Shown here one piece after another: positions 850 to 62,823 of a DNA stretch of 64,000 bases. The stretch covers positions 11,607,832 to 11,671,831 of the forward strand of contig OZ038458.1 of the NCBI GenBank assembly GCA_964036195.1. The letters are read 5' to 3'. The notes below the pieces were generated by a model. That model was given only the letters and a program-made list of their open reading frames with translations. It was not told where the DNA came from and ran no database searches. The position numbers and the translations under genes were made by a program. Numbering within the stretch: the first letter of the stretch is position 1; the number at the start of each line of letters is the position of its first letter. This stretch comes from Sphaerolaimus hirsutus. Lineage: Eukaryota; Nematoda; Chromadorea; Monhysterida; Sphaerolaimidae.

Positions 850-3800
850 TCACATGGACACGTGGCGGGTGCGCTTGTCGCCCTGGGGGCAGTCCCAGTC
901 CCTGTAAAATGCCCTGTAAAGTGCCAAATGTCATGCAAAGTGTCAAAAGTCATGTAAAATGCCCTGCATTTTGCAATGCATTTTCCATGACTTTTGACAC
1001 TTTGCATGACATGTGACACTTTACGGGGCATTTTACAGGGTCTGGCAGTGGCACCAGGTCGCTGCGCTGCAGCTGCAGCTGCAGCCGCGGCGGCGCGACC
1101 ACCGACAGCACCTTCTCGTTGTCGTAGTTCAAATTGGTTTCGGGTCTACGCGCAAACGACTCGCACGTCCAGGTTTGCGCCGGAGTGTCGGGCTGGACTG
1201 CGTGTGCCTGGTGTGAAATTTAATTAGCCCGACAGGTTATTACGGACAGTAAGGTGCCCCACACGCTGGATGTCAACTGTTTCGGTGTCAACTCGATTTT
1301 ATGACACTGTAAGTCTCATGACAATTTTTAAGGGTACATGCGGCAATGTCGAAGAGGAATTTATATTGCCATGTGCATTTCAACACGGTTTCGCAACCTA
1401 TGAACTAAAGATTTTTAAAAAACGGTCGGCCCAGTTGACATCCGGATGTTAACCGGGCCGACCGTTTTTCATAAATTTTTAGTTTATGGGTAGCGAAACC
1501 ATGATCAAATGCACATGACAATATAAATTCATTTTCGACATTGCCGCATGTGCCCTTAAAAATGGTGCTGCTACCTAAATTCAACCAAAATCGAGTTGAC
1601 ACCGATACAGTTGACTAGTGATGTAAAAAGCGCCGGAGTTTTGGCGCCAAGCGCCAAAAGCGCCATGGCGCTTTTCCATGTCCGGCGCCAAGCGCCAATG
1701 GCGCCAGACAATTTTAGCGCCAAGCGCCAAAAGCGCCATGGCGCTTTTCCAGACCGTAGCGCCAAGCGCCAATGGCGCCAGAGAGCAATGGCGCCAAGCG
1801 CCAATAGCGCCAGCGCCAAGAATTTGTCGGCCGATTTCTGATTACCCATATGTATTTACATTGTATTTTGTACCTATATGGATTGAACTGGATGCTAAAC
1901 ACACAAAGCTGTTCCTCCATTTGTTGAACGATACATGAAAAATTGTGCACCAAATTTACCCGCAGTGAGGGATATAAGCAAAGTATAAAAGTATACCGTG
2001 GAGGACGTTTTGGTTTTTCGCCCAGTTCTGATAAGCATCCCAAAAATGAGCACCTTTCAGAAGATATAATTTATGAAAATTATGAAAATCTCTGAAAAGC
2101 TCCAAAAAATGTTTTTTTACATATCTGGAAAAACCTGCAACATTTATGAGTAGCGAAATTTGGGAATTTGTTTTTTCTTATTATTGAAACATATAAATCT
2201 CCAACATTTTTACATTCCTTGATGTGATAAGCATTGATTTTTTGAGCAGTATAGGATTTTTTATTTTTAAACTTTGGCCAGGATTTTCCAGAGAAATTGA
2301 ATTATATTTTCTATTTGAGAGACTTTCTGAGATTAAAAAAATATCAGAAAATATACAAAAAGCACATTTATTTTCATTTTTTCTCCAGTTTTTCCCCAGA
2401 AAAATTAAATTTTATTTTATTATATTATATTTGACTAATTTTTCTTAAAATGGCCCATTTTTAATGCTAGATGTGATTGATTGTAAAGTGTTCATTCAGC
2501 ATGCTATATATTTTTATTCGGGGTGAATTACCTAAGTTTCAATGGATGAAATCTGCTATTTATTTATCAATGGAAAACGGATATGTGGTGAACCATAACT
2601 GTTAGGTGAATCCGAATATATTGGATTGAACAAAAAACAACAATTATTTCATATTTTGATGGCATATTTGATGCCATCCGTCGAAAATGTACATACCGCA
2701 AATCCTTGAATAAGACCCCCCCCCTCGAATAACTCCCCCCCTTGAATAAGTCCCCCCTGCTGGCGGGGTGAGGAAAAAATAACTCCCCCCCTTGAATAAC
2801 TCCCCCCTCTTAAATAACTCCTACTTCTGATGAAAAGGATACAATACAAAACTATAGAAGAATAGTAGCAACAGCAGATAAAAATGTGTATGCAGTGTAT
2901 ACACATTGTTTTGTTGTTGTTGGACAGTGAAATACCTGCATTACACGAGTTTACATGCTGCATCCATACAATGAATTAAGTCCAAGTTTCCTGAGGAAAT
3001 AATAACTCCCCCCCTCGAATAACTCCCCCCCTTGAATAACTCCCCCCTCCAAAACGTCTGACGAAAAAATAACTCCCCTGGGGTCTTATTCGAGGATTTA
3101 GGGTAGGTAGATGGTATGGCGCTTTTCTGGCGCTTTTAAAAGTGTTAGCGCCAAGCGCCAATGGCGCCACGGAATTATAGCGCCAAGCGCCAAAAGCGCC
3201 ATGGCGCTTTTGAAGTTCTTGGCGCCAAGCGCCAATGGCGCCACGGCAAAAAGGCGCCAAGCGCAAAAAGCGCCATGGCGCTTTTTGGTTTGGCGCTAGT
3301 GCCAGGCGCCAGCGCCATGGCGCTTTTACATCACTACAGTTGACATCCAGCGTGTGTGGCGCCAAAGATGCATTGTACACACAAGCTGCCGCGTCGTAAA
3401 TATAATCAATTTTGTTTACAGGCCTGTGGTCCGCCAGATGCAGAATTGTTCAATTCAAAGGTATTTACGTATTTTATGATACAATGCGCCAGGCTATGCG
3501 AAAAACATGTCGGGCTGATAAAATTTCGTCCCTGCTGCTGCTGCTGCTGATGGCGTTGCTGCTGCTGCTGATTGTTTTGTTGCTGCTGCTGATTGTGCTG
3601 CTGCTGCTGCTGCAGATCGTGCTGCTGCGGATTGTGCACTTGTTTGGGCTTCTCGCCGCTCATGGACAGTCGACGGGTGGAGGAGACCATCAGCGACGTG
3701 TTCTCCACCAGCGAGCAGGCAGAGGCCGGTGCGCTGTTGTGCCGACGGCGACTGCGTCCGCGCTCACCGTGCACCGCCGGCTGGTTCAGCAGGTGGACGC

Positions 3801-6800: not shown

Positions 6801-8444
6801 GCGCTAGGGGTAAGCTACGGTCATAAAATTTCGACAGGTTAAGATATCAGGTGTTTTGAGTTTTCACCCAAAATTTAACCCCTCTAGCTCCACCCACTGC
6901 GGAACTGTGGGGGTTACAATTTCGGGCAGTTTGTACTGATGTACACATGGTGCTCTAGCTCAATGCTGCTTTAAGTTGTGATCATGAAACTTTGGCTATT
7001 GTAAGCCACCAGTGTTGGCAATGTGCCAGCACTAACCAACATTAGCTATGATATCATAAGTCAAGTTCATATTGTCATTACTGTCACTACCAAATTCATC
7101 ATTCTGCCTCTCCTTCTCAAAAAGTGGTTAATGGTCAAAAATGTTAGTGGTCAAAAAGTGGTTTCGTCATCCTCATGCACACTGCTGTTGAACACAGTTA
7201 ATGTGTCCACTACAGATTAGTAATGAAACATAGGGAAATTTTGCATTACAATTTGCATTACAACATGATCTCAGATGATCACCAAAAACATCCATCAGTT
7301 CCCACGTTTCTTGCACATCACCCTGATCTGCATATTAATTTTACTTTAATAGCAATGATGTTGATAAGTGTTGAATATTATCAGCACATTACCAACACTG
7401 GTGGCTTACACTAGCCAAAGTTTTATGATCACAACTTAAAGCAGCATTGAGCTAGAGCACCATTTGCACATCAGTACAAAATGACCGAAATTGTAACCCC
7501 CAGCGTTTCACAGTGGGTGGAGCTAGAGAGGTGAAATTTTGGGTGGTGACTCAAAACACCTGATATCTAAACGTGTCAAAATTTTATGACCGTAGCTTAC
7601 CCCTAGCGCGAATGGCGAGTACTGCCCGGGGACTTTTCAGTCGGACCATGTACATGATGTATTCATTGCTGCCAAATAGCATTGCAGCCACGCATATATT
7701 ATAGTCGGCGTAGATATATCCCATTATATGTAATTACAAATAATTCCTGTTTGGTCTCATTCGTCAACAGTTTTGCTATGTTTGTCTATTCTTTACTACG
7801 ATCATTCACGAAATTTTGTGATGAAATAACAACCCCCCTCCCTGAATAAGCACCCCTCGAAATACTCCCGCCTCAAAATGTGCTGGTGAATTAATAAAAC
7901 CCCTGGGGGGATTTCGAGTAAATACGGTAGGTACATTGTACATTCTTCACGACCTGCAGTTTCAGTAGCTCACCTGCAGCGCGGGCCACTCTCCGTCGCC
8001 CACAGCAGCGACACTGGTGGCGCTGCCGTGCGGCACGCGCGCAGTGTGCAGGTTGACCGAGCATCGAGTGAAGTGCGGCAGCCAGTATTTCACTGCCTGA
8101 TCGCCTGCCACGCACAGATGCAGCGGACCTGCGCTTGTGTACCGACGTCACACCACTGAAACATCAGCTGCGAGTGAATCAAAGTACACACCGACGATCT
8201 CCGGCATGGTGACGGTGACAAACAGCTCAGTCCTGATGCCATTGACACCATCTTTGCCCGACTCCACCTTGGATACATGGCGCCGGCGCACTTTTAGCTT
8301 GATCGACTTTGCCAGCGCCAGATCGTACGGGCGCGCGTGCAGCGGGTTGTCATCCCGCGCCACATACAGCTGCCGCTGCGACAGGACGCAGAAGCGCTTG
8401 CGCCACCGACCCCACACTTCCTTGTGCAGGTAGCCGTACGCCTC
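850..8444 (-). CDS. PH-domain and Gln-rich protein (5' end missing)
   Basis: Six exons chain on the minus strand with GT-AG borders and matching phase: 8444-8192, 8128-7974, 4306-4014, 3946-3469, 1207-1055 and 882-850, giving 454 codons without the start. The first two exons encode a pleckstrin-homology-like fold: GYLHK in the first strand, WRKRFCVL in the second, a late LCVAG strand and a Trp in the closing helix. Such domains bind phosphoinositides or proteins at membranes. The rest is low complexity: basic and Ala-rich, then Pro/Ala-rich, then Ser/Arg-rich with a possible kinase site (RRLSMSGEK), then a Gln tract encoded near 3529-3635, and a tail ending HVSM. I do not recognise the family. 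The join between the PH exons and the Gln-rich exons rests only on strand and phase, across a 3.7-kb stack of nested repeats. The last intron is exactly an introner-like element, followed by only ten codons and a stop. Confidence 0.5.
883..1054 (-). mobile_element. introner-like element forming a complete intron
   Basis: On the minus strand the interval opens GTGCCACTGCCAGACCCTGT and ends GGGACTGCCCCCAG, so its ends are both terminal inverted repeats and splice sites. Removing it joins CTG to GGC in phase 0 and leaves a stop ten codons later. The interior is a near-palindrome of CATTTTACA, TGTCATGCAAAG and similar motifs. GTCGC occurs next to both ends and may be a 5-bp target duplication. 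Confidence 0.75.
1253..3361. repeat. foldback element carrying a later insertion
   Basis: The left end (CACGCTGGATGTCAACTG near 1262) is repeated inverted at the right end (CAGTTGACATCCAGCGTG near 3337-3354). A perfect hairpin of AACGGTCGGCCC and its complement lies at about 1420-1475. The element is interrupted at 1616-3336 by a TAGTGATG-type insertion. A related simpler copy lies at 11035-11247. Confidence 0.6.
1616..3336. mobile_element. hAT-like MITE, TAGTGATG family, copy 1
   Basis: Ends are TAGTGATGTAAAAAGCGCC and its inverse GGCGCTTTTACATCACTA. The 8-bp sequence CAGTTGAC sits directly outside both ends (1608-1615 and 3337-3344), an exact target-site duplication of hAT type. Both flanks are arrays of GCGCCAAGCGCCATGGCGC; the interior is AT-rich and includes a CCCCCTTGAATAA-type repeat at about 2695-3105. 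No transposase reading frame is present. Confidence 0.85.
3529..3635. repeat. CTG/CAG trinucleotide tract
   Basis: An imperfect (CTG)n run on the plus strand reads as a Gln-rich stretch on the minus strand, broken by His, Asn and Arg codons. It lies inside an exon of the PH/Gln-rich gene. The interruptions suggest an old, stabilised tract. Confidence 0.85.
4455..6765. repeat. nested foldback elements
   Basis: The outermost arms (4455-4523 and 6690-6764) are near-perfect inverted copies sharing TTAGGTTGTAAACTAAATA. Inside are an element bounded by ACACCTTCCCGATCAAGTCC and its inverse (about 4524-5813), which carries a further insertion at 4540-5106 and an inverted pair around 5310-5620. Next comes a long-arm foldback beginning ACATTGGCGGATAAT (about 5814-6687). 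Only non-coding sequence is seen. Confidence 0.65.
4540..5106. mobile_element. hAT-like MITE with TTTCCGTTTTCCGG array
   Basis: Ends are TAGGGTGTCAAC and GTTGACACCCTA. The exact 8-bp duplication TTCCCGAT flanks both ends (4532-4539 and 5107-5114). Nearly all of the interior is degenerate repeats of TTTCCGTTTTCCGG. It is inserted in one end of an older foldback element. Confidence 0.88.
6766..7655. repeat. long-arm inverted repeat
   Basis: Arms of well over 100 bases are inverted copies: the CGGGCAGTGCTCGCCATTCG region near 6783 pairs with CGAATGGCGAGTACTGCCCG near 7610. The CAATGCTGCTTTAAGTTGTG region near 6961 pairs with its inverse near 7430. It is AT-rich in the middle with no gene seen. 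Together with the neighbouring elements it fills the large intron between the PH and Gln-rich exons. Confidence 0.6.
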
Positions 8445-8775
8445 CTGTGGAAATGCACATGTTCGCGGTCTTCCCGATAGCGGCGAAAATGCAGTATGCC
8501 AAAAAAATCAGAGAATTCCGGTCAAGGGTCGGCTAATCATGGAACAGTGTGATTTAGGGCTGTGATAACCTATCCAGTATTTACATAGTTGCCATGAAGA
8601 TACTAGAACCATAGCGCGAGAATGAACTAAGTGGCAATCCACTTAGGGTTGTCCCATTTGTGCGACCTTTAAGATAGCGCTCAAACCCCAGGCAAGAATT
8701 TCAGAAATAGTCTGACCTAATCGGAGAACAGCACCATGGCGTTCTTATCGGTTCAATTAAACCCCACCACTAGAC

Positions 8776-16385: not shown

Positions 16386-16888
16386 CCGCACACTAGTTGC
16401 CACTGTTGACGTTGTGTGTCAACTGGTCTGTGTCAACTCTGATTTCGGCTTCTCATGTCGCACAGCGATCTCCTAATGCACATGCTGCAATGTTGTTAAA
16501 CAAATGTTACGTCAAGTGCATGGAACATCGCTCGGCGACACGTGAAGCCGAAATCTGGGTTGACACAGACATGGGGGCAGTCGCAAGCCCTGTAAAGTGT
16601 AAAGTAAAATGTCAAATGTAAGGTCAAATAAAGTGTCAATCAAAACAGAAAAGAGAAGATTTTATTAGTGAACTTTGCATGACAATTGACAGTTTACTTT
16701 GCATTTGACTCTACATTTGACACTTTACTTTGCATTTGACTTTACATTTGACACTTTACTTTGCATTTGACTTTACATTTGACACTTTACTTTGCATTTG
16801 ACTTTACATTGGACACTTTACTTTACACTTTACAGGGCTTGGGACTATCACCAGTTGACACATGTGTGCCAACTAGTGCGCGGGCGCC
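16386..16888. repeat. MITE with nested introner-family copy
   Basis: Outer ends CGCACACTAGTTGCC and CCAACTAGTGCGCG enclose a copy of the introner-like family (about 16571-16854). That copy has GGGGGCAGTCGCAAGCCCTG on the left and CAGGGCTTGGGACTATCACC on the right. Its interior repeats TTTGACACTTTACTTTGCAT several times. It is intergenic. Confidence 0.6.
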
Positions 16889-18970: not shown

Positions 18971-21900
18971 CTGGCCATTTCAGAATGTACATGTAAAATT
19001 TTCTAGACATTCTAATTTTCGTGATTCCATTTTGTGCGAACTTTTTCTTTCGATGTCCCGAAGTGAAGCATTTCAGAGCTATTTAATCGCGACAAATATT
19101 GGCTCTACACACGCTAGTTGACATTGACACCAAATGTCAACTGGTTCCATTCCCAATTCAAAGCTTGCGTTTGAATGTCATTCGTCGGCTCGTCAGCGAG
19201 CCTTGCATAGGGATCGGAACCAGTTGACATTTGGTGTCGATGTCAACTAGCGTGTGTGGGCCCATTGTCGAGCTATACACGAACATCCTCTCCTAAAAGT
19301 TCAGTTCCATCAATACTCCTTTGGGGATCGTTAAAAATAGAATCATTACAATACATTCGCATCAATTTCACTCAATATCCCCACAAATAGTGGCACATTG
19401 AGTCTATCATTTCTTTGTATCACAAAAACGAAGGGCCTATCTGCTCTGAAAATTGTTTTCTGTACGATTGCCGCCCTAAGTCCCATAACGAATGCGGTGG
19501 CTGCGGCCGCTTCTGTTCCCCTTTCGTTCACCTGCAGGAGATGAGCAAAATTTTTTCCCATATCCGTGCAGCGCAATGTAAATTTTCATGCACCACCTGG
19601 TGCCAGTCCCAGACCCTGTAAAATGTCAAATTTCATGCAAAGTGTCAAATGTCATGTAAAATGCCCTGGAAAATGGCAAACGTTTGACGTTCTACAGGTT
19701 TGGGACTGCCCCCAGTAATACTTGTAAAAGGAATCGGCTGCCTCTAGGTGAGGATTTTAAGTTAATGTGAGTCTGATTCTATTCTAAAACAGTATGCTAT
19801 CTAGGAGCCAGAAAAACATTGGATTGGGCAGCTTTAAATTCCTAGTACAGTTTATCGAGCTGTCCAGAAAAGTTTATGGCTAATTTAATTCCATCCCAAA
19901 TGTTTCTAAATGAAAATTTCAAATTGAGTCTATTGGAATCATATTCTGCACACCTCCTGTAGGCTTTTTAAAGTAACCCGTCATTACAAACCTCAATAAA
20001 CGCCTTGTGAACAGCCTTGGTAACATAAAGGTCCTTTTTTCCTGTCATGCGTGAGAAGTCGGCGCTCCTAGGACTGAACATGTCCGTCATGCCCAACTCA
20101 GCCAGCACCCTCTTCAGGTCCAGTGTCTCCGTCATTTTGAACTTTGGCAAATGCACGTGAACCCGGGGGCACTCTCAGACCCTGTAAAATTCTTTGTAAA
20201 ATGTCAAATGTCATGCAATGTGTCAAAAGTAATGTAAAATACCGTATAAAATACAATATGTAGTTTGCTATTTTATAGGGCATTTTACATGAATTTTGAC
20301 ACTTTGAATGACATTTGACATTTTACATGGAATTTTACAGGCTCTGGGAGTGGCACCTGGGCTGTGCGCTGCTGCGCCTTGTCCACCCAGCGCTGCATAG
20401 CTGCAGCGTCTGTGAGTGCCGCGTCCAAGTTGGTGCCCTCCTTGGGCAGCACGACGTACATGGACAGGCTGCGGCCCTTGTAGGGCAGACCGAGCACCTG
20501 CACCGACTGGTCTTCGTAGTAGGGGTACTGGCCCTCGCGCGACATGAACTTGACCGGCTGCCTAGATCCAGTGGGTGGTCTGAAGAAACCCTGTGCAATG
20601 ATGTGAGTGGTGGGTAGGCTTTTGCGCTTGACACCAGCACATTTCATCAAATAGTAAGTGAAAAACTGACGTCATAGGTGACGCCTCTATTTGCTGAATC
20701 GAATGGGGTCAACCAATCTCCTTTAAAATAAATAGCGTTAACGAGGACCATTCTCGTCAAAGAAGTCAGTGTTCCTGGCTGCAGTAAATCCCTGATTTTA
20801 TTGTTGGTTTTTTCCTCCACCCAAGTGTTTATCTGACTTCTGATCGCTTCAAATTTTCTCACAAAATCGACCACCATTGCTTCTCCCTGCAAACACCCAG
20901 TGACCGCTCGCACAAAATCATCCAACATTTCCATGTCTTGTTGTGCAAAAATCGCATTTGCCGTGCTCAAATTATAGCCTTGACTTGGTGCATTGATATC
21001 GTCCATGAGCTGCTTGAATGCCGATAGTTTCTGCACCAGAAAGCACAATTTACTAATTAGCGCCATCAACAATCATTTTTGCCAGGTGCCAGTCCCAGAT
21101 CCTGTAAAATGCCATGTAAAATGTAAAATGTCATGCAAAGTGTCAAAAGTCTTGTAAGACACTTTGCATGATATTTGACATTTTACAGAGCATCTACAAG
21201 GTCTGGGACTGCTCCCAGATGTTCAGATTCCGTGTCGGTTAACTCAAAATGCCCTATAAGCTGATTTATATAATTCCGAAATTTCGGTTGTAAACTAAAT
21301 ATTGAATGTGTGTAGGCAAATCTATAAATATCTCCCCAACCATCCACTTCAGTAACGTTTCATCAACCTCAGTATGACTGCGCACGGACGGCGTTAGCGA
21401 CGCGTCGATCTGCGCCAGCGTGTTGCTCTGCGCGCCCGCTTGCACCATGGCCAGCGCGAGCGCGACGGACATCGGCGACACGAACACGTTGCCCGTGGTT
21501 GATGTCCGCCGCGCCACGTTGAACAGCGACCAGCTGAAGGCTGACACGTCGCTGTATAGAGCCTGTGAACGTCGCACCGTGTGCGTAAATGTTTACTCTT
21601 GTGTAGTGATGTAAAAGCCCCATGGCGCTGGCGCCTGGCGCGAGCGCCAAAGCAAAAAGCGCCATGGCGCTATTGGCGCTTGGCGCTATTTTGCTGTATC
21701 GCCATTGGCGCTTGGCGCTACGCCCATGAAAGACGCCATGGCGCTTTTGGCGCTTGGCGCTATTTTTGACTGGCGCCAGGAACAAAATGTCTGGCGCTGG
21801 CGCTTGGCGCCATTTTGCTCTGGCGCCATTGGCGCTTGGCGCTAGGGGTCGGAAAAGCGCCATGGCGCTTTTGGCGCTTGGCGCCAAAGTTCTGGCGCTT

Positions 21901-29557: not shown

Positions 29558-32500
29558 ATGGCGCTGCCGCCGTCGACGAACACCAAGAGCAATGGCAACG
29601 TGAGACGTCGGTCGAGCAGCAACGCGGCCGACTGCAGCGTCGATCGAATGCACAACGATCAGCAGAAGCCGACCGCAGTGCGAGCTGAGAGCACGATCAC
29701 GCCGCTGCCGCCCATCAACGACAAAGAGTTCGGCGCGCAGCTGGTGCCGATCCCAGACCCTGTAAAGTGAAAAGTAAAGTGTCGAATGTCATGAAAAATG
29801 TCATGCAATGTGTCAATTGTCATGACAAGTGTAAAGTAATGTGTCAATTGTCATGAAAAATGTAAAGTAATATGGCAATGGTCATGCGAAGTTAAGTAAT
29901 GAAATCTTTTCTTTTTTGTTTGTTTTAATAGACATTTTACATGACATTTGACACTTTGCTTTACACTTTACAAGGTCTGGGACTGCCCCCCCCCCGGCCG
30001 ACCTGTCGCTGAGCCCGCGCGACCGCGCGCTCGTGGCGCATAGCTACGCGCACGTGGCGCTGCGGCGGCAGGAACTGGGCGGCAAGATCTTCCACATGAT
30101 ATTCGAACAGGCGCCGGAAGCGCGCGGCCTGTTCAGGTTCGCCGACGGCCAGGAGAACGCCGACGCGGCACAGTTGGCGAAAAGTGCGAACTTCCAGTTC
30201 CACGGGCTCAGATTCGTCCAGGTGATAATCTACCAGCTGCCAGTTCCGCAAAATGAGAAGTGAAATGGCAAAGGCGAAGTAAAAGCGCAAAGGCGAAGTG
30301 AAATGGCAAGTGAAATGGCAAAGGCGAAAAAATTTCGTCTTATTTTTTACTTCGCTTTTGCGCATTCACTTGCCGTTTCACTTCGCCTTTGCGCTTTTAC
30401 TTCGCCTTTGCCATTTCATTTCTCACTTCTCATTTTGCGGAACTGGCCCCATGACATGTCTGATAACGTGGTGAAACGGCAAACAACGTGTCGCGCAGGC
30501 GCTAGAAACGTGTGCAAAGACACTGGATTGTCCGGAATCGCTGGCAGCGCTGGCCGACAACTTGGGCCGGTTGCACGGGCGTCTGGTCGGCCGCAAAGGC
30601 TTCAAAGAATACTTTTGGCACGTGTTCATCGAGGCGACCCTCTTCCACATCAGGCGATGCCTCTACACGTGGGACATTTCTGCAATGGGCGACGTTTGCG
30701 ACAAGGGTCGATTCAGCGTGGAAGAAGTCGATCGAATCGCTACCGCGCCGTGCAACAAACCCGCAAAGTTTGGCAACGGCGCCGCGTGAGTGACAGTTCA
30801 CAATGGGCCCCCACACGCTAGTTGACATCGACACCAAATGTCAACTGGTGCCGATCCCGATTCAAAGCTTGCTGACGAGTGGACGAACGACGTTCAAATG
30901 CAATCTTTGAATTGGGAAGGAAACCAGTTGACATTTGGTGTCGATATCAACTAGCGTGTGTGGGGCCAATGCGGGGCGCTGCAGATTAATGGCACTGCGT
31001 GCAATCGCGAAAACTTCGCAGGAGTCTGGCGTCCATCAAAAACGCAGCGTCCAGGTCGCAATCAGCCCATCATCTGGGAGTGTTGGCAGCCAGCAGCCAA
31101 AGCAGCACACCGCACAGCGACCGTTCCATGTCGCCGCCGGGCGCCAACGACTCCGGCGGCAACTGCGAGCACATACCGGTAGGCACGGCAAACATTGCGT
31201 TGCGCCGCTGCTCACACAATAACGATGCGATTAACATATTAAAGCATCCACGATGAACACATGCGTACCGTTTCGACCGGACCAAATGGCAAATAGAAAG
31301 CTTTGCGCGCTAAATATAAGCAAACAAGTGTGTGATGATAATCAAGAGCCCCGCGCAGGCGGCGAGCGGAAGTCACGTCGCCGGGACTGCACACCTGGCC
31401 GCGGTGCTGCGTCGCCGACGCCGGATGCCAATCCGTACGGCTCTGCGGACGGTCGCCGCCGGCAGCGGCAAGGCACAAGGTCGGTGCTCACGGATGGCTC
31501 CGAACTTTCGTCCAATTCAGGCACCGAATACACTCTTCAATTTCAAGTTCAAATACTATCTTCCCCTCCGGGGGAGAATTTACCGTATTCCGTCTAATAG
31601 AAGGGCGCCCCTCTATTATTTTCGTCAACTTTTCAGCCAATCCTTTTCAAGTTTTGCCAAGGCTTTTCAAAGTGTTACGTCACAGACATTTCATAAAATG
31701 ACGATACATAGAGTTCATTCAACATTTGATGTTAAAAAGCACAAAATCAATGAACCAAAGCCACTAAATCACAGCGTCCGCAGATAGTTTTGTTTTCAAA
31801 TGCATTTGGCACAATTCCAGCACTGTGTAGTTTCTATTGAAGACTGCCTTTTTATTTTTTTCATGGCCCAAATTGAGTCGAAAAAGTGTTTTTTCTATTA
31901 GAGAACTGCCCTTTTCTTAGAAAAAATATGGTAGCTACATATCTATCCAGCCCCCCCCCCCGAGGTTCAAATTTCAAGTTTACCTATAAAGAAAAGTTTT
32001 TTATAAATGTTCATATACCTGTTCAGACTGCCAACGCTCGAAAAACGGTCCTTCCTGAAAAGGCACTGGTTGAGGAGTAGGTAACCACCTAAACACTGAA
32101 AATGTGGCCAGTTATCAACCCCGGAAGGCAAACGAGAACCCTATGTTGACATAAAAATGCGACTACCACACAGTTTCGTTCCTACTGCCATACCGGTGGT
32201 AGCCAGAAACCCCTGGTCGCTGTGCACCGGAACTCCTCAGTGGGCAAGTGCCACAGCGCTTACTTAACCTTAATCGAGACCCCCCGCCTATGTCGCAACC
32301 GTGTCACATTCAATTTTTGTATTCATCTGCATGCTTCTAGCGTGCACATTGTTTATGGCCTTGCATGCAAAATCCCCATTTTTTTGTAAAATGGTCTCAT
32401 TTTTTAAAAATTAATGACATTTCAGAATAAGATAAAACATGAATAAAATTAGAATGCAAATTTTAATAATAATAAAATACAAATTTAGTTTAAATTTTTT

Positions 32501-43100: not shown

Positions 43101-46100
43101 CCGTCTACTCTTTTTTGCCTGGACACTGCCAATCACCATTAACTCACACCCAGCTCATGCCCAATGGTAGAAGTATCGGCGGCAGTGGGCGGCGACCACA
43201 GCTCCACTGGTCTTGACAAGCTGACCGCCAGCATGCAGCGCGCCTTCTACGTTCCCGCGCGGCACGTCGACAGGCCATTCGTTATGGCCGTCGACCATTG
43301 CTTCGTGATCAAAGGTCAAGGCACCGTAATGACTGGCACTGCGCTGGCTGGCCGGATCAAAGTTGGACAGGATGTTGTCGTACCCTTGTTGAATGAGACT
43401 AGGAAGGTTGGCGCTTGTTGTGCTGGGTTGGAGATGGCTGGAGTAGTGTCTTTATTGTGTTGTGTAGTTTTTCAAAAAGGGATCAAAGGCGCACCGCACA
43501 CTCAAAATTTTCAAGTGCAGTTCGAACGTTTTTGAGTTCCGCCAAGGCGGAACTCCAAGTGCAGTTCGAACGATTTTTTAAAGGATTTTTAGGGCATTTT
43601 TTGGACATTCGAACGGAGTCCGGACGAATTCGTACACTTTTCGCTGATTTGTGTGTCATAACATTTCCACGCAGCAAGATAGGTAGATCTAGGCTTTGTC
43701 TTCAAAAATGAATAGAGAAAATTTTTTTTAATATCCACTTGTTTTAAAGATATTGAAGTTCACCGTGTGGCATATTTGTGTAAACTTAAACTGAATTCCA
43801 CCCTCTAGAAAGTGTCCCAATGTTTTCTTGCCCAGATGGCGCACCGCACACTCAAAAGAGTGCGGACATTGTTCAAACGCTTTGCGCTTTCCGAATTAAT
43901 TCGGCCCGTGCACAATTCGAGGCAATTCCGCCAAGCATAAAAAGAGTGCGGACATTGTGCAAACGCTTTGCGCTTTCCGCCCTTTCTGAATTAATTCTGC
44001 CCCTGCACAATTCGAGGCAATTCTACCATCGTCAAAGTGTTCGAACGTTTCATGTGCGGAATTGAAATCGAGGGCGGTTCGGACGTTTTTGAATTCCACC
44101 CCCGATTTAAATTCCGCCCTTTTGAATTCCGCCCTTGAAAAAGTGTTCGAACTGCAACTGAAAATTTGAGTGTGCCGTGCAACAAAGAAACTTTTCATCC
44201 TGATCTGGATCAAATTGTAGACTTTCTTGAACATTTTCGGTTGGTGAGTAATAGGTGAATACATTTCTAACGCGCTGTTCCTGCATGCAGATAAAATCGA
44301 TACAGCGATTCCGCCGCTCCGTTGAATCTATTTCGGCAGGGGAGCGGGCGGGCATTTGCGTGCCAGCTTTGGATGCAACTGCGCTAGAAAGATGTCTAAT
44401 TTGCGATGCGACTCAGCCACTGAAACCTCTTCACGCTGCCTTGGCCAGTCTCGAAATCGTTCGCTTTTTTAAAAAGGTTTGTCAATTTCTACGCATTAAA
44501 TACCGGTCGACCTAACAAACCGTTGACATAATTTGAAGCCGATCGACGGCAAAACCCGTTATCACGTCAGCATCGGGCACGACACGGTCATGGCCAGAAT
44601 AACGTTGTTCGAAGTCAACGGCGACACGTTTGACTGGAGTAGGGATCATATGTGGCTACCCGAAGTCAGCCATGAGCGGATGAAGTCTGCTGATGGGGAC
44701 GCTACTTGCGAGATTGTGGCTTGTCTAATGGAATTCGATCGCCCAGTCTTTTGCCAGGACAGGTATGTGGACAAACGGGTCGTGTTCACTTCAAGCTTGC
44801 ATTTGTCTATTGACTAGAGTCTTATTTTTATGTGGGAGAAGTTGTCACTTCTCTGTTTAAGTGCCAAAGCGCTGTCCACGTGTTTTTTATAAAATCATAT
44901 TTTTGAATATGAATAAGTGGTTTTGGCGACCCCCATTTATGGGTATAACTAAAAAAAATAACTATATAAATATATAAATAGTAATAAATGTATAAATATA
45001 TAAAATATATAAGTAAATAAATATGTAACTATAATTACCCGTGACTGAAAATATAAATAATTCTTTGCACAGGTGCATTTACATAGCATCGCGACTAGAC
45101 GCCGACGTGCACACCAACCAGTGCCGGATCGCTTTCCACGGCCGCCTGCTGCACTCGTTCCACTCTAAAAGTTACGCCGCTACCGATTTGCCAAATTTGA
45201 GGTTGTACAAGAATAAACTCAAAATTGGAGTCATAGAAAGGATGCATGATGAGTCCACAGTTATCGTGCGCGGCTTAGTAAAGAAGGAAACAAAAGTGGA
45301 ACTGTTTGCTGGATTGAAAGTGAACTTGAGCACCGGCGAGCACGGAGTCATAGAGTCTTCGTTTGGACAGAGTGGAAAGGTTGTTATTTTTCGTTGTTTT
45401 TCACTCAGTGGAGGGCATAGCGGATTTTGGGGTTAGCATTTTGGGGGGGGGGTCAGCCGGTCAGCACGCGTTAATAACTCGGGAACCGCTTGGCGAAAAA
45501 TGTTGAAATTTGGATATGTTATGGTTTCAGGTCGGCGCTAGTATTAATTCCGACGATTTTTTTCTACGACCCCTCAGACCGAAGATAGGGGGGGTCTATA
45601 AAAACACTGTAATTTGCGTTTTTTTGGGTGTCGCCAAGAACATGCAAACTTTGAACATCAATAGCTCGGTCATTTGTGAACCGATTTTAGTCATTAAAAT
45701 GTTAAAATGGTCACAAATGTTCGGAGAGTTCATTTCTGAGGTCGAATCGGAGATACACATTTGTTTATATATCGATTTAGCCCGATTTCGAAATGCAAAA
45801 TTTCCGCAAAAGTTTGCTTTTTGAACATACTATCCTATTCTCCTGATCGAGAGAAACCCAATGAAACAAAAATGAGATCGATATCTCTCTCCTATCAAAA
45901 GTTATAGCACTTCAAACGTCCCATCCATGTAAATAACCGCATGAAGGTCAATGCGTTCAAATTCAAAACTCCATATCTCGACCATTTATCAGCCGATTTT
46001 TACCAATGAATATTTAAAATGATCAGAATAACCTGAAAGTTCCATTTGTATGCTCAGCTTATCTGTATCCTAACTAAAATTTCCCACACAAGAAAATAAT

Positions 46101-47171
46101 GCAAACTCTTGTATGAAATTATCATTATGAAAAAGCATATTGACAATTTGAACATACAACTGGACTCTTTAGGTTTTTCTGATCATTTTAAGTGTTCATT
46201 GGTCAAAATCGGCTGAGAAATGGTCGAGATATGGAGTTTTAAATTTGAACGCATTGACCTTCATGCGGTTATTTACATGGATGGGACGCGAAAGTTTGAA
46301 GTGCTATAACTTTTGATCGGAGAGAGATATCGATCTCATTTTTGTTTCATTGGGTTTCTCTCGATCAGGAGAATAGGATAGCATGTTCAAAAGGCAAACT
46401 TTTGCGGAAATTTTGCATTTCGAAATCGGGCTAAATCGATATATAAACAAATGTGTATCTCCAATTTGACCTCAGAAATTAACTCTCCGAACATTTGTGA
46501 TCATTTTAACATTTTAATGACTAAAATCGGTTCACAAATGACCGAGCTATTGATGTTCAAAGTTTGCATGTTCTTGGCGACACCCAAAAAAACGCAAATT
46601 ACAGTGTTTTTATAGACCCCCCCCCTATCTCCGGTCTGGGGGGTCGTAGAACAAAATCGTCGGACTTGATACTAGCCCCGACCTGAAACCATAACATATC
46701 CAAATTTCAACATTTTTCGCCAAGCGGTTCCCGAGTTATTAACGCGTGCTGACCGGCTGACCCCCCCCCCCCCCAAAATGCTAACCCCAAAATCCGCTAT
46801 GGTGGAGGGGCCTGTCATTAGCGGGGGGGCCTTTCAAACACTGACAAAAGTGAAACACCGTTTTCACTTCACTATTTGCCTATATGAAACCCCATAAATC
46901 AAGCCAAGAGCAATAAATCAAGAACGTAAAAATTTGATGCATAGTCCAAATTTTTGTTGCAAAAAACGGCTGACGTTATTACGGTGTACACACCTTGCAG
47001 CTGCGTGTGCGTGTTCCCGCTGGGCTGCAGCCATCGACAATAGAACGACTTCCTGTCGCTGGAAAGAAAAACAAAACAGCCGCCGCTGGCGGAGATAAAA
47101 TGGAACAAATTCGCATCGAGCTGGCGTTCAAAAGATTCATATTTGACGCTACCAAAAAGATGATTCAATAG
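40168..47171 (+). CDS. EEFSEC: selenocysteine-specific elongation factor eEFSec
   Basis: GTPase that delivers Sec-tRNA to UGA codons with SBP2 and the SECIS element. Eight exons join in phase: 40168-40284, 40374-40484, 42564-42829, 43154-43406, 44291-44476, 44539-44762, 45073-45379 and 47001-47171, giving 544 aa. G1 is GHVDSGKT (12-19), then SRERGITLDLGF (effector region, from 40), G3 DCPGH (81-85) and G4 NKCD (136-139). Later blocks are GVLG-like MESINFNVGILG at the start, VDHCFVIKGQGTVMTGT, GHDTVMARI, SRLDADVHTNQCRIAFHG, KKETKVELFAGLKV and FGQSGK. The tail FKRFIFDATKKMIQ ends domain IV as in vertebrates. A polyadenylation-type AATAAA lies at 47291-47296. Introns 2, 4 and 7 are swollen by repeats; others are as short as 62 bases. 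Its presence implies that selenoprotein synthesis is retained. Confidence 0.97.
40813..41286. repeat. inverted-repeat element in EEFSEC intron 2
   Basis: AAGGCGGTGTTTACACGGAT near 40815 recurs inverted as ATCCGTGTAAACACCGCCT near 41266-41284. Additional inner inverted motifs (TTGTCGGAGG and its complement) flank a central hairpin near 41050. Confidence 0.6.
41364..42538. mobile_element. hAT-like MITE, TAGGGTTGGCCGATG family, copy 2
   Basis: Ends TAGGGTTGG and CCAACCCTA with the exact 8-bp duplication AGTGTAAC at 41356-41363 and 42539-42546. The interior matches the copy at 25621-26301 nearly base for base (for example ATATATGTTGACACAAGGTC), except for a 527-base insertion at 41615-42141. It lies in EEFSEC intron 2. 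Confidence 0.9.
41615..42141. mobile_element. hAT-like element nested in copy 2, GATAGATAGCTGG array
   Basis: Ends CAGGGGTCTCC and GGAGACCCCTG, with the exact 8-bp duplication TATGCTAC (41607-41614, 42142-42149) of a sequence present once in the empty relative near 25866. The interior has GGGATAGATAGATAGCTG repeats and long G/C runs. Confidence 0.92.
43487..44180. repeat. inverted-repeat element in EEFSEC intron 4
   Basis: GCACCGCACACTCAAAATTT near 43491 recurs inverted near 44160-44178 (AAATTTGAGTGTGCCGTGC). Internal repeats GTTCGAACG, CAATTCGAGGCAATTC and GAATTCCGCC occur several times. It is not coding. Confidence 0.6.
45416..46801. mobile_element. hAT-like foldback with arms of about 650 bases
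   Basis: Ends CATAGCGGATTTTGGGG and CCCCAAAATCCGCTATG with the exact 8-bp duplication GTGGAGGG at 45408-45415 and 46802-46809. The two arms are nearly identical inverted copies, leaving only a short centre near 46100, so a transcript of EEFSEC intron 7 would form a very long duplex. Confidence 0.9.
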
Positions 47172-58139: not shown

Positions 58140-61100
58140 TCACAGCTCAGCGGGGTCGTGCCGTCTCAGCTGCGAGCCGTAAGCTGTGGCTTGACTGCCC
58201 ACGAACGCGTCGTAGTGCTCGTCCGCCTCGTCGAAGCTGATCTTGCCGTCCTTGTCGTCGTCCACCATGTTGATCAGGTGGTCCGTTTCTGCCTGGGTTC
58301 ATGGTGGTGGGTATTTTGCGCGGTGTTTGTATTTACATGCAGTGTTTGATAACATTTCTCCTAGCCTCTGTTTTTGCTATAAAAAGAATAGCTAAGTGTG
58401 ATGCAAGGGGCAATCCCGGACCCTGTAAGTGTTAAATGTAATGCAAGGTGTCTATTGTCATGACAAATGTAAATTGTAAATTCAAATGTTAAAGTGTCAA
58501 TTGTAATGCACAGTTAAGTAATAAAATCTTTTTTGTTCGGATTGACATTTGACACTTCACTTTACGGGGTCTGGGATTGACACTGAGTTGGGGAATAGCT
58601 CTAACTTGACTGAAATGCATTTTCACGACGACAGACTTGGAATACAAAACGCAAACAGGTATTTTTTTACACATCCGTCGAACCAACATTTAGAATTTTC
58701 ACCCACTTTTCACTGCTCGATTTGTTACCTATGTTGATGTTTTTTGCTATACTCGGCGTACGTGATACTCTGCCCTCGCACTGCTTTATGTCTCGTGTTG
58801 GAAGCGTGCCAATGATTATTAAATCATGCGATTTCCGTAAAAATATGAAAAAAATTCATCGATGTGAATATGTTAATGAATAACATTATAACAACAATCA
58901 ATTTTTTCATCTTTTTATGAAACTCGGACGCGTTAACCATCGTTGGCACACTTCCAGCGGGAACCACGCGTGCAGGGTGTAAAGTAACCGGAGTATAGAT
59001 GTTTCATTTTTTAAGTATTCTGCATCAGTGTCACGCTGAAACTTCAGCCCAAGACGCAGTGAAAGAAAAAGACGCCCACCTGAGAAGGATCATATCCATC
59101 GGGCGCCACCCAGGACTTGACCTCCTTCCTGTCCAACTTCATGTTGCCGTCCTTGTCCCAGTGGCTGTTGAACGCGAGCCGCTGGCCCGTGACCCACTCT
59201 GGTTCCTGCACCGTGTTCGGGTCCTTGCGCCACATGCTCGAGATGTATTCCTCCTCCGAGAGGTAGCCATCCTGGTTGACGTCTAGTTCCCCCATGGTTT
59301 CCTGTGGGGGTTTTTGAGCCATGTGAATAGCCACATGCCTTGAAAAGAATTTGATTTTTTTTATTTATGGGTGTATTTAATCTTTGAAATACATTTTTCT
59401 GGTTGCCGAGGCTATTGTTGTGAGCTAAATAAGTGTGTGAAGCATTTTTATTGTGGGTTTCCAAAACTCAAGCGGGGGAGCAGGGAAAGCGCACACCAAC
59501 CGATCAATGCATCTACCATCTTAGCTTACAGGTCCCATATGTAGAAACACTTTTTACGTTTGAAAGAACACTGACTTCTCCATTGAAAAAAATATCAAAG
59601 TACTTTCCAGAAGCACCTCATGTTGAGTTCTGTATAAAGTGATAGGTGATCGAAGGCAGAGCAATAGGTTCTGCCGTCCAAATCTTAATTCATTTCGTGT
59701 TTCGTGTTTGTATAATTCTGAAAACTATGTTTGTGTTTCTTGCCCTCGCATTTATCAACAATCACTGTGCTATCTGCTGAAACATATTCTATACGGGTTA
59801 CCGTATCAATAGCCGTCATGCCCAGTGCACATGCAAAAATGTCGTATTTAAAATGGAAGTCTGGAAAAATCAGTCCGTCGTAGTGATGGAAAAGCGCCAA
59901 GAAAAATGGCGCCAGGCGCCAATGGCGCCATGGCGCCATTCAAAATAATGGCGCCACAGAAAAGGGCGCCAAGCGCCAATGGCGCCATGGCGCTGGCGCC
60001 CTTTGGCGCCATTAAAGGGTGCCAGCGCTGTGGCGCCATTCCATCACTAGTCCGTGGCAGACAGGGAGTTGGGTGAATTGTGGGAGCAACGTCTCGCAAC
60101 GCCAACATTTTGGCGTTGTCATAATCAACGCTACATACACGCATTTATGATCCATGTCACAGCTAAGATAAATATTTGACAATTGATCAGCTCACGCCAC
60201 GTACCCATTTGTCATTAACAGCACACATTAATATTAAATCAAACTTAGATCTCGCGTCCGAAGTGTGCTAGGGTAGAGCAAAAAAGGCTGTACCCCTCAA
60301 ATAGTTAATTTTTGAGTTTCTTTATATGTGTGTTCGTTCTCTTAAAAAGAACACTTTCTGTATTTAATTGTCGCAGCATCAGTAACAGCTGGACTTTCTA
60401 GTGAAACATATTTTTCACGGGTTTAAATAGCCTTATAGCAGCGCAGGGCTCATGCTGAAAACCTGCAATCCTGCACATGATATTCTCAGCCCATGGGAAG
60501 GGACTGTTGACAAACGTATTTTTTGATCAGAGTTAGTGGTGATTCCGTTGTGAAAAAGTTACACGAAATTGTGACTTCAACGCTCGCGCTGCTGCGCCAC
60601 CATTAGCGCTGCGCACACCAGTACACCACCGACATTCGGGAAACCCATAAATCTGCAATGAACAAATTTGACATAAGGAGGTGTCTGTAAACTACAGTTG
60701 ACGGCGATAAAAATAACTCATTGTGGTAAACTCAAGGTGTTCAATGCGGATTTATGAGTTTTCTAAATTTCTACGGTGCACAGTTCGCACTCACCTCGAC
60801 AACGACTTTGTCCATGTGGTGGCACTCGGTCGGGTGTATGGCACACTTGTATTCATCAAAGGTCAGCGCTCCGTCTTTGTCCAGGTCGGCCTCCTTCCAC
60901 CTGCGCTCGTCGATCACCAGCATCTTTTCCATGTAGTCCGTCATCGGGTTGTTTGGGTCGTCTGAGAGGTGCAGACATGTTTAATTGGTGTGTGGGGATG
61001 CCTCAGATTTCTTATTTGCGCGCGAGTTGGTAAATTTGCAAAATGCCAAAACCAAATTGAAAAACCGTGACTTTCGCATTTTATCTGCATTCATTACTTC

Positions 61101-62823
61101 ATTTGCAATTATATATGTATACCGTATTCTAATAGAACGGCATACGCCCAATAGAACGGCACTCCCACTAGAGCGCCAGGTTTGGTATGTTTTTACGCCC
61201 ACGAAAACAATTGAACGGCAGCCTCCAATGGAACGGCACTTCCCTTAGAACGGCAGGTAAAAATTGACCGAAAAAAAACGGCGCTCTTCTATTAGAAGAA
61301 ATACGGCAGGCATATCCACTTTCTATCTCATGCGGCCACACACCTTCGCCATAGACCCTCTTCTTATACTCTGTCCATTTAATCTTGTCATCCTCGACGA
61401 TTTCCTTGTACTCGGACCACTGGTGCGCGCTGTCGGTGTACATGTCGCGCAGCCGCATCGTTTCCAGATGCTCGCGCAGCTCGGACGCGTCCAGCATGCC
61501 GTCATTTGAGGTGTCCATCGTTTTCAGCAGTTGACTGTGGGGATAATGTTGTGCTTGAAAGTAGGTATCGTACCGTATTTACTCGAATAATTCCTCCGGG
61601 GAATTATTTTTTCGTCCGACCTTTTTTGAGGGGGGAACTTTTCAGGGCGGGATTATTCATATGTTGGAATTATTATTTCATCGAAATTTCCAAGCATGTC
61701 TCTATCACACTACATAAACACTATTTTCTGTCTCTGTTGGTAGTGCACATTCCATTGCATCTTGGCACACCGGATTTGCGCTCATTAGCGCCGCTGCTTT
61801 TGTATTCGATTTAACGAACTTGTTGCAACTTATTTGCTTGTGTAGTATTTGATTGAATTACTACAATACAATAATTCAATCAAATACTACACTTGGTCTG
61901 ACTTCATCGATAGTTCGTTTAAAGATATGTGAATTTCTTATTATAGGGGGGATTATTCTAGTAAATACGCTAATTTTGCTGTATAGTCTATTCCTGCACT
62001 TGTAGGGAGCGAGTGGGAGCCCGCAAGCTGCAGGGGGCAGTCTCAGACCCTGTAAAGTGTAAAGTAAGGTGTCAAATGTCATGTGAAATGTCATGCAATG
62101 GGTCATTGTCATGAGAAATGTAAAGTTAAGTGTCAATTGTCATGCAAAGGTCAGTAATAAAATCTTTGTTTGTTTTGATTGACATTTTACATGACATTTG
62201 ACACTTTACGGGGTCTGCGATTGGTACCAGGTGCAAATCGACGCTATGACTGGTTGCAATACCTTAGATTGTTTGTTAGCAACGTTGAAATATTCACATG
62301 ACAGATAGAAGCCGCATGGTAATGAAATGTTCCCTTTGGTTTCAACACAGGAATGGTAATATTCATGAGAAGTTTAAGGTTGTATTTGATGACGAATTTG
62401 GGGAAGAGAATGTGTTTGAATATTAAAAGTGCTAGTAAAAGTTGCCATGTATAACGTGTGATTGTATTTATGATATCTTATGAGTGCGTACACGTATACT
62501 TTTAAGCCTCGAATGTTTAGCTTTCACACAGAACCAACGCTTTTCCAAGCAGTCGCACTCACCGCAGTTTGCTCTTGGCCTCCGCTGGCTTCAGTTCATC
62601 CCATTTGCCCGCATCCTCTTTACCTAGAAAAGCTTCATGGTCGAAATTGGCATCGTGCTCGCCCTTCTCGTTCAGATGAGGCTAAGCGTGGTTAATCAAG
62701 TTGGGGGGTTTACTGGGTTTATTTTACATTTGTTGTCTTACTGTAACTCACCGCCACGTGTGCCCACGAAGCCGCAACCACCGTTAGAACTGTGGCGGCT
62801 GCCAAAAGTTTATGCGTGCTCAT
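58140..62823 (-). CDS. CALU: calumenin/reticulocalbin (CREC EF-hand protein)
   Basis: CREC proteins are low-affinity Ca-binding proteins of the secretory pathway. Six exons fit in phase: 62823-62752, 62681-62563, 61534-61344, 60961-60795, 59301-59080 and 58292-58140, total 307 aa (calumenin is 315). Signal peptide: MSTHKLLAAATVLTVVAASW. FDHEAFLGKEDAGKWDEL is the family entry block. EF loops are DTSNDGMLDASE, a degenerate one near VEDDKIKWTEY, DLDKDGALTFDE, DVNQDGYLSEEE, DKDGNMKLDRKE and DDDKDGKISFDE. EPEWV and FVGSQATAYGSQLRRHD are family landmarks. The C-terminus is HDPAEL, an altered form of the HDEL/HDEF retrieval signal. All donors are GTGAGT or close except at exon 3 (GTGTGT) and exon 5 (GTGGGC). 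Introns contain a TAGTGATG MITE and two introner-family copies. Confidence 0.95.
58407..58586. mobile_element. introner-like family copy in calumenin intron 5
   Basis: GGGGCAATCCCGGACCCTG on the left and GGGGTCTGGGATTGACAC on the right, with TGTCATGACAAATGTAAA-type core. It is a passenger inside the intron between exons 5 and 6. Confidence 0.6.
59881..60049. mobile_element. hAT-like MITE, TAGTGATG family, copy 5
   Basis: Ends TAGTGATGGAAAAGCGCC and GGCGCCATTCCATCACTA. The flanks GTCCGTCG (59873-59880) and GTCCGTGG (60050-60057) match at seven of eight bases. At 169 bases it is the smallest copy, made almost only of GCGCC repeats. It lies in calumenin intron 4. Confidence 0.82.
61573..61970. 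repeat. TACCGTATTTACTCGAATAA-type element
   Basis: Left ACCGTATTTACTCGAATAAT and right ATTATTCTAGTAAATACG are inverted. A central hairpin GTAGTATTTGATTGAATTAC lies at 61842-61891. It is in calumenin intron 2. Confidence 0.55.
62031..62230. mobile_element. introner-like family copy in calumenin intron 2
   Basis: CAGGGGGCAGTCTCAGACCC on the left and GGGGTCTGCGATTGGTACCA on the right. It is oriented so that it could splice on the minus strand, but it lies inside a larger intron and no coding sequence abuts it. Confidence 0.65.

Follow-up and report, generated by a model that had tools for sequence, protein, structure and literature searches.

Active intron gain is thought to be rare in animals. 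Introners, as described by Gozashti et al. (2022), are repeats resembling DNA transposons, with target-site duplications (TSDs) and/or terminal inverted repeats (TIRs), that create introns on insertion; most leave the length of the mRNA unchanged, and in that account they are reported in only two animal groups (PMC9860276). In its Chrysochromulina case, the element carries the 5' splice site and recruits the 3' splice site from the TSD (PMC9860276). The introner elements of Amoebophrya are described as having hairpin inverted repeats, direct repeats of 3-5 nt that overlap the borders and many non-canonical borders, and hairpin-guided removal has been suggested for them (PMC7789003). In Fritillaria borealis, the U2-type spliceosome is described as removing introns that break the GT/AG rule, which fewer than 10% of introns keep (PMC13326754). 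Among transposons, the NuwaI group of the PIF/Harbinger (PHIS) superfamily is characterised by CWG duplications, a distribution restricted to animals and terminal repeats that usually start with GGG (PMC4482050). Here we analyse a repeat family in a 64,000-nucleotide stretch of contig OZ038458.1 from Sphaerolaimus hirsutus (hereafter the window), starting from a copy at positions 886-1054. The family very probably consists of non-autonomous DNA transposons, that is, miniature inverted-repeat transposable elements (MITEs), which generate introns and bear the target-site signature of the NuwaI group.

We propose that a transposase supplied in trans would insert the element at a CWG target and duplicate the three bases. 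In the GT-first orientation, the element's own first two bases (the GT of GTGCCA) would serve as the 5' splice site, and at a CAG target the second target copy (..GCCCC^CAG, with ^ marking a border) would serve as the 3' splice site. From the arrangement CAG^GTGCC...GCCCC CAG^, removal of the element with one CAG would return the original frame and sequence exactly, while the near-perfect inverted repeat could fold the RNA into a hairpin that draws both ends together. We infer that copies of the family are spliced in this way, that the hairpin may assist their removal and that a Harbinger-type transposase probably mobilises them.

An inverted-repeat family at CWG targets

The genome that holds the window comprises 348 Mb in 762 contigs, and eleven contigs of 24-34 Mb are represented among the loci matched. 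The first-pass annotation had suggested a genome-wide search with the element ends, and this search bears the family out: the exact 23-base pattern of the GT end has 3,151 matches, against none for the same pattern reversed. A query with the whole element gave 2,287 candidates at first look (40 of them were scored), and the family numbers about 3,000 copies genome-wide. In the positional loci, a partner lies within ~520 bp of 80 of the 86 distinct exact ends. As far as the annotation could judge, the family was undescribed, and our search, limited to open-access literature, found no earlier description.

For the anatomy of the family, 160 raw pairs of ends were collected from 120 fetched loci (some overlapping) and the window. 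Removal of 29 (duplicates, pairs with over 7 mismatches summed across the two ends, pairs with insufficient flank and pairs whose first end is not GT-type) left 131 distinct two-ended copies, comprising 33 from query-similarity loci, 92 from a positional list on contig C1 and 6 from the window. The median copy length is 180 bp. One GTGCC-type end and one GGGGC-type end are found in 113 copies, and the remaining 18 have two GT-type ends, as at L070:65, an antisense case whose orientation label is arbitrary. Symmetric ends, our first assumption, were dropped, one end being GTGCC and the other GGGGC; the inverted repeat is asymmetric (GTGCCANTCCC / GGGGCANTCCC), with the family end sequences GTGCCANTCCCAGACCC / GGGGCANTCCCAGACCC. 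A consensus of 96 copies spans 186 positions; the median divergence from it ranges from 0.064 to 0.103 across the four classes that contain at least two copies, and similarity among copies reaches both borders, that is, the element ends plus one target copy.

The three bases outside each end reveal the target. In the 75 positional copies with one GT and one GG end, they are (donor side first) CAG/CAG in 19, CTG/CTG in 22, CTG/CAG in 7, CAG/CTG in 2 and other combinations in 25; identical CAG or CTG copies therefore flank 41 of the 75, and mixed pairs flank 9. From these counts we conclude that CWG is the duplicated target and that it is preferentially preceded by C and followed by G: of the 86 copies flanked by CWG on both sides, 53 carry C at -4 and 47 carry G at +4. 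A longer TSD of 4-6 bp, hinted at by the sequence GTCGC on both sides of the first copy, was rejected, as CWG alone is duplicated in the first copies. The GTCGC that the annotation had seen next to both borders is nevertheless real, and family-wide it amounts to a weak palindromic preference around the CWG target. A zebrafish Harbinger has a CACCWGGT-type target.

At the starting locus, the features are as follows.

886..1054, minus strand: the introner copy under study, a MITE of 169 bp with its GT end at 1054 and its GGGGC end at 886 (paired-end search)
883..885, minus strand: acceptor-side target copy, CAG, which would supply the AG of the intron
1055..1057, minus strand: donor-side target copy, CTG, unlike the acceptor-side copy (CTG/CAG class)
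1055..1219, minus strand: upstream open exon piece with a provisional 5' limit, ..TNLNYDNEKVLSVVAPPRLQLQLQRSDL (open reading frame (ORF) reading and coding score; no Pfam family)
850..882, minus strand: downstream in-phase end of the frame, GDKRTRHVSM-stop (sequence reading)

An inverted-repeat search of the window finds a near-palindrome here, with arms at 879-968 and 972-1061 that are 87% complementary, and the predicted RNA fold of the copy with 15-nt flanks is a single long hairpin of -130.5 kcal/mol. Each end of the copy has one mismatch in the paired-end search. The annotation had delimited a TIR element at 883-1054; its inverted arms and ends are confirmed, whereas the boundaries shift, the element being 886-1054 and 883-885 the duplicated target. 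On the minus strand, the locus reads ..GCGACCTG^GTGCCACTGCCAGACC....GGGACTGCCCC^CAG^GGCGACAAG, a GT..AG interval whose two sides are open in one phase (..LQLQRSDL^GDKRTRHVSM-stop). The predicted intron at 883-1054 would thus equal the element plus one copy of the 3-bp target duplication.

Copies that interrupt coding exons

The best evidence for the probable creation of introns in a previously continuous exon comes from a P450 gene on contig C16 (L026), with element copies at 274-439 and 923-1101. Its paralogue on C15, with 64-70% protein identity, covers residues 1-97 and 93-197 in single uninterrupted stretches (one stop was counted in the stretch over 1-97, at the exon end after KKG), and a paralogue on C2, at 47% identity, is continuous over the second place (residues 95-198). 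At one place, the C15 DNA reads GACCCAGACTACTTC (GACCCAGACTAC), against GACCCAG, a 166-bp element and CAGACTACTTC (CAGACTAC) in C16, and the 3-bp duplication is plain. At the other, the paralogue reads ACTGCAAGGGTAACC, against ACTGCCAG, the element and CAGGGTGACC in C16. At both places, the coding frame continued into the element meets a stop inside it. Once joined, the ORFs give Pfam p450 matches of 2.1e-31, which aligns 94 residues with 94 profile positions, and of 9.7e-30.

Similar restoration is seen in three further genes, and in total the removal of the element with one target copy gives collinear Pfam matches over six junctions in four genes. The serpin gene in the window (copy at 20166-20356) matches Serpin at 2.2e-40 through the junction after removal, and CHGN is matched at 4.5e-15. 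OSCP1, on the minus strand of L059 (C1), holds copies at 1347-1523 and 2170-2358 in conserved exons, one at a CTG and one at a CAG target; its Oscp1 match (9.9e-42) aligns 89 residues with 89 profile positions and spans one ordinary intron as well as two introner junctions. As a control, the second exon of OSCP1 was extended into the element: the score is then 43.0 bits, compared with 63.1 when the exon is joined, and the match breaks off three residues beyond the junction. A single OSCP1 locus was matched; its three pieces span residues 1-96 of 109, and so an intact copy that might replace it was not seen. In a FAT4-type cadherin gene (L110, 1.7e-23), the element lies between DQ and NDNAP and the family match ends at the junction; matches to leucine-rich repeats (LRR) and to a second cadherin (L045, L109) do not cross the junction. 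The interruption of conserved coding exons, mostly in one orientation, protein families restored on removal and a paralogue that lacks both insertions of one gene together uphold the suggestion that this is an introner family.

These genes also bear on whether the element entered introns that already existed and now fills them, rather than creating them. Some copies do lie inside longer introns; for example, the ordinary OSCP1 intron between the two exonic copies holds two more related elements, seen by eye. However, both places are intron-free in the P450 paralogue, a precise 3-bp duplication surrounds the element at one of them, and the interruptions in OSCP1, P450, serpin and CHGN consist of nothing beyond the element and one target copy. 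We therefore give the filling of older introns next to no credence.

Orientation provides a further line of evidence. A codon model built from 8 exons (715 codons; 902 after adding one ORF) was used to score 123 copies outside the training set. Among strong-scoring copies, the gene lies on the GT-first strand (sense) in 36 of 43 (p = 9e-6), with CAG/CAG contributing 9/11, CTG/CAG 7/7, CTG/CTG 12/15 and other flanks 8/10, and a different scoring window and threshold gave 18 sense against 1 antisense. One antisense copy in an open, coding-like frame, L108:466 (C1), has a changed GGGGC end; its gene strand reads CAG^GCAGCAG...GGCAC^CAG, a possible GC-AG intron, and no Pfam family was found for the frame.

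Several observations weigh against intron creation. With only 8 exons behind it, the coding model is weak; when the threshold is removed, the sense excess is significant for CAG/CAG alone (25/32, p = 4e-5), with p = 0.09 for CTG/CAG, 0.38 for CTG/CTG and 0.93 for other flanks. At the second P450 place, the paralogue has AAG where CAG would be expected. Selection of ORFs for Pfam was by eye and began with recognisable ones; 4 of 10 in the first set had no credible family (L078, L047 and L106, together with L063, whose weak match is unrelated); 8 of 10 in the second set (10 sense CTG/CTG ORFs) and 10 of 10 in the third (5 sense and 5 antisense CTG/CTG ORFs) had no convincing family. The case for splicing is made from proteins throughout.

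A rival reading is that of an ordinary MITE family with an accidental GT start and CAG end, whose exonic copies are disruptive or lie in misread sequence and of which nothing is spliced. Since the ends are fixed, every intact CAG-target copy is GT..AG by construction. Strong coding context is missing in 80 of the 123 scored copies, and many copies may therefore be ordinary MITEs outside exons. Agreement between the frames of the two sides does not clearly separate sense copies (CAG/CAG 3/4, CTG/CAG 4/5, CTG/CTG 5/8, other 1/5) from antisense copies (1/4, 2/3, 3/3 and 1/4 in the same order), with few copies per class. Against a family of this kind stand the sense bias, the P450 paralogue free of either insertion, the collinear families over six junctions, the two copies carried by the sole OSCP1 locus matched, and an excess of CAG at the acceptor-side target copy, discussed below. 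Taken together, we consider it highly improbable that nothing is spliced, and intron creation is the reading that we retain.

For the copy at 886-1054 itself, an intron is likely rather than proven. The annotation had described a whole GT-AG intron with in-phase coding on each side; the GT..AG interval and the single open phase hold, and the coding score is higher in sense (16.8) than in antisense (10.9). The best frames of the two sides over 75 nt disagree, however, the downstream piece being a mere 33 nt including the stop, and no Pfam family was found for the two ORFs over the copy; these two findings keep our grading at likely. As for the proposed host, a PH/Gln-rich gene, the PH match at 8148-8507 reaches 20.2 bits, below the cut-off of 25.1, and may lie in another gene than the copy at 886-1054.

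The window contains 8 two-ended copies, 7 found by paired-end search and one (19600-19712) by eye; the annotation's figure of about ten is fair if fragments are counted. Besides the copy at 886-1054, these are as follows.

16574..16851, minus strand: related copy of the CCCAAGCCCTG subfamily (paired-end search)
19600..19712, plus strand: short copy with CTG / CAG flanks (by eye)
20166..20356, minus strand: copy within a serpin coding exon, CAG on the donor side and CGG on the acceptor side (Pfam Serpin)
21086..21215, plus strand: copy with CAG / CAG flanks and no coding evidence (paired-end search)
29744..29989, plus strand: copy with CTG / CCC flanks adjoining a reading frame that we take to be globin-like (paired-end search)
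58407..58583, minus strand: diverged copy (paired-end search)
62034..62227, minus strand: copy with CTG / CTG flanks and no coding evidence (paired-end search)

Other repeats occur alongside them. Positions 1272-1615 form a 344-bp head-to-head palindrome, another MITE-like element, with arms of 172 nt that are 83% complementary and have no spacer. Nested long inverted repeats lie at 45443-46770 (arms of 330, 165 and 155 nt, 88-98% complementary), and clusters of GGCGCCAAGCGCCAATGGCGCC-type repeats are dispersed in both orientations at 1636-1812, 3162-3338, 21602-21892, 50242-51207 and 59894-60015. No Rfam family was found in the window.

CTG targets and the acceptor side

GT-AG borders are present at CAG-target copies and absent at the CTG-target copies in OSCP1 and CHGN and at the CGG serpin copy. 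The CTG/CTG copies in OSCP1 (L059 1347-1523, the second copy of that gene) and CHGN (L077 690-853) have no border AG, yet they interrupt conserved exons in sense orientation. The missing acceptor-side AG in these coding copies counts against the proposed mechanism. If removed exactly, the OSCP1 and CHGN copies would be GT-TG introns, while the serpin copy (CAG/CGG) could be a GT-GG intron on exact removal or could be spliced at an AG that leaves 9 further nt in frame.

The CTG-target copies may accordingly be removed by a route other than plain border GT-AG, be it GT-TG splicing by the spliceosome, a reaction guided by the hairpin or the use of a different acceptor that alters the protein, and we regard the chances for and against such a route as evenly balanced. 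Both CTG/CTG copies sit within collinear family matches. Splicing at GTAAAA..TTTTACAG within the element would leave 37 extra nt and break the frame, and internal sites in general (donors at 0, 6, 18 and 30 nt; an ACAG acceptor 19 nt ahead of the point where the second target copy ends) were rejected because they give +1 frame shifts. Strong-scoring CTG/CTG copies are predominantly sense (12/15, p = 0.035), and the frame is open right through the element in just 1 of 30 CTG/CTG copies (L053:1501). On the other hand, the sense excess involves small numbers and is not significant without the threshold (p = 0.38), and a convincing Pfam family was found in only 2 of the 15 sense CTG/CTG ORFs tested. 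An AG lies 21 nt downstream in OSCP1 and CHGN alike and would preserve the frame with the loss of six residues, although we consider use of this canonical acceptor unlikely. Yeast without Prp18 uses non-YAG acceptors (PMC10711555), but loss of Prp18 as a cause of relaxed acceptors is not supported, with two Prp18 exon matches present in the genome. Among the coding classes, median divergence is smallest for CTG/CTG (0.056, 7 copies), followed by CTG/CAG (0.066, 4 copies) and CAG/CAG (0.073, 13 copies), and some CTG/CTG copies may therefore be young, gene-breaking alleles.

The two sides of the element differ in their target bases. Genome-wide exact counts give 1,907 CAG to 1,667 CTG on the donor side (53.4% CAG) and 1,581 CAG to 1,017 CTG on the acceptor side (60.9% CAG), and these ratios differ (chi-square 34.1, p = 5e-9) in counts that cover partly different sets of copies. 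Since equal drift of the two target copies would give equal ratios, we interpret the difference as a sign that AG has been selected at the acceptor following insertion at CTG targets. As a limit on this reading, mismatched pairs in the positional sample number 7 CTG/CAG to 2 CAG/CTG (p = 0.18). It is conceivable that one family makes two kinds of intron, GT-AG at CAG targets and GT-TG at CTG targets, both exactly removed, and that a later T-to-A change on the acceptor side turns GT-TG into GT-AG. The copy at 886-1054 (CTG..CAG) would then be a matured intron, and the surplus of CAG at acceptors would be the footprint of this process. We put this forward tentatively, as possible rather than probable, because both CTG cases with homology support have an in-frame AG further downstream.

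One further locus combines both targets. L047 (C1; 1145-1875, minus strand) holds two copies in one gene, presumably SMYD-like although Pfam gave no family: a CAG/CAG copy between coding pieces and a CTG/CTG copy after the second piece, where a continuation of the frame is not obvious.

Transposon affiliation and comparison with known systems

The CWG duplication and asymmetric inverted repeat appear to resemble those of NuwaI transposons. Compared with the GGG start of that group, one end here begins GGGGCANTCCC and the other GTGCCANTCCC. The genome contains 163 matches to DDE_Tnp_4, and no transposase with introner ends was found among the DDE_Tnp_4 families examined (L127/L130; L128, which was not delimited), which weighs against the proposed mobilisation. 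The abundant Harbinger family L127/L130 is not supported as mobiliser, with a right end unlike the introner ends and a left end that was not reached. Unpaired introner ends were likewise tried as the ends of an autonomous element; 6 of the 86 exact ends are solo, and no larger element was recognised at them. The Harbinger family of L127, L129 and L130 (C4, C3) looks recently active, given that many listed matches have one and the same 633-base shape and that two copies share 99% identity along 6.5 kb. The Harbinger-type transposase gene of L128 (C6) itself contains a related copy at 57-248, seen by eye in an acidic stretch of the open frame (..SFDDESDPL^DDSSDKDSG..); ten listed DDE matches share the E-value of L128, and this transposon may therefore be spreading an introner as its own intron.

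The host is an animal, with a FAT4-type cadherin and with COX1 on a 14,754-bp contig (C762) that reads TGA as Trp. COX1 has AGA where Ser is, we presume, conserved, which fits a protostome-type code. COX1 (L131) also matches two plasmid records, NZ_CP087955.1 (Wolbachia of Corcyra) and NZ_CP053901.1 (Proteus from duck); both matches are at 67% and cover 93% and 89% of COX1, respectively. These records may be mitochondrial DNA filed as plasmids.

Thousands of copies, a paralogue without insertions, a superfamily signature and a clear account of the splice-site origins make this family a system for direct tests of intron creation. If CTG-target copies do splice without AG, they would offer many natural tests of the need of the animal spliceosome for AG and of the maturation of new introns, and, should the family indeed make two kinds of intron, these would be introns caught acquiring a canonical acceptor. 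Like the Chrysochromulina introners, the elements carry the 5' site and would take the 3' site from the TSD; unlike them (4-bp TSDs and no TIR in the published description), they have a 3-bp CWG TSD, a TIR and target copies both with and without AG (PMC9860276). They share with Amoebophrya a hairpin inverted repeat, short direct repeats at the borders and non-canonical borders. The Amoebophrya elements, however, come from a dinoflagellate, have RNA-seq support and are described without a family-specific inverted repeat, whereas here there is one clear family, known from genome sequence (PMC7789003). As in Fritillaria borealis, non-canonical acceptors may be in use in an animal; in contrast to that tunicate, the donor is GT and the acceptor alone varies, within one family (PMC13326754). 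NuwaI shares the CWG duplication, an animal host and, at one end, a GGG start (here GGGGC), while the other end here starts with GTG and the element is a MITE that lacks coding capacity; the NuwaI passages of that account make no mention of intron formation (PMC4482050).

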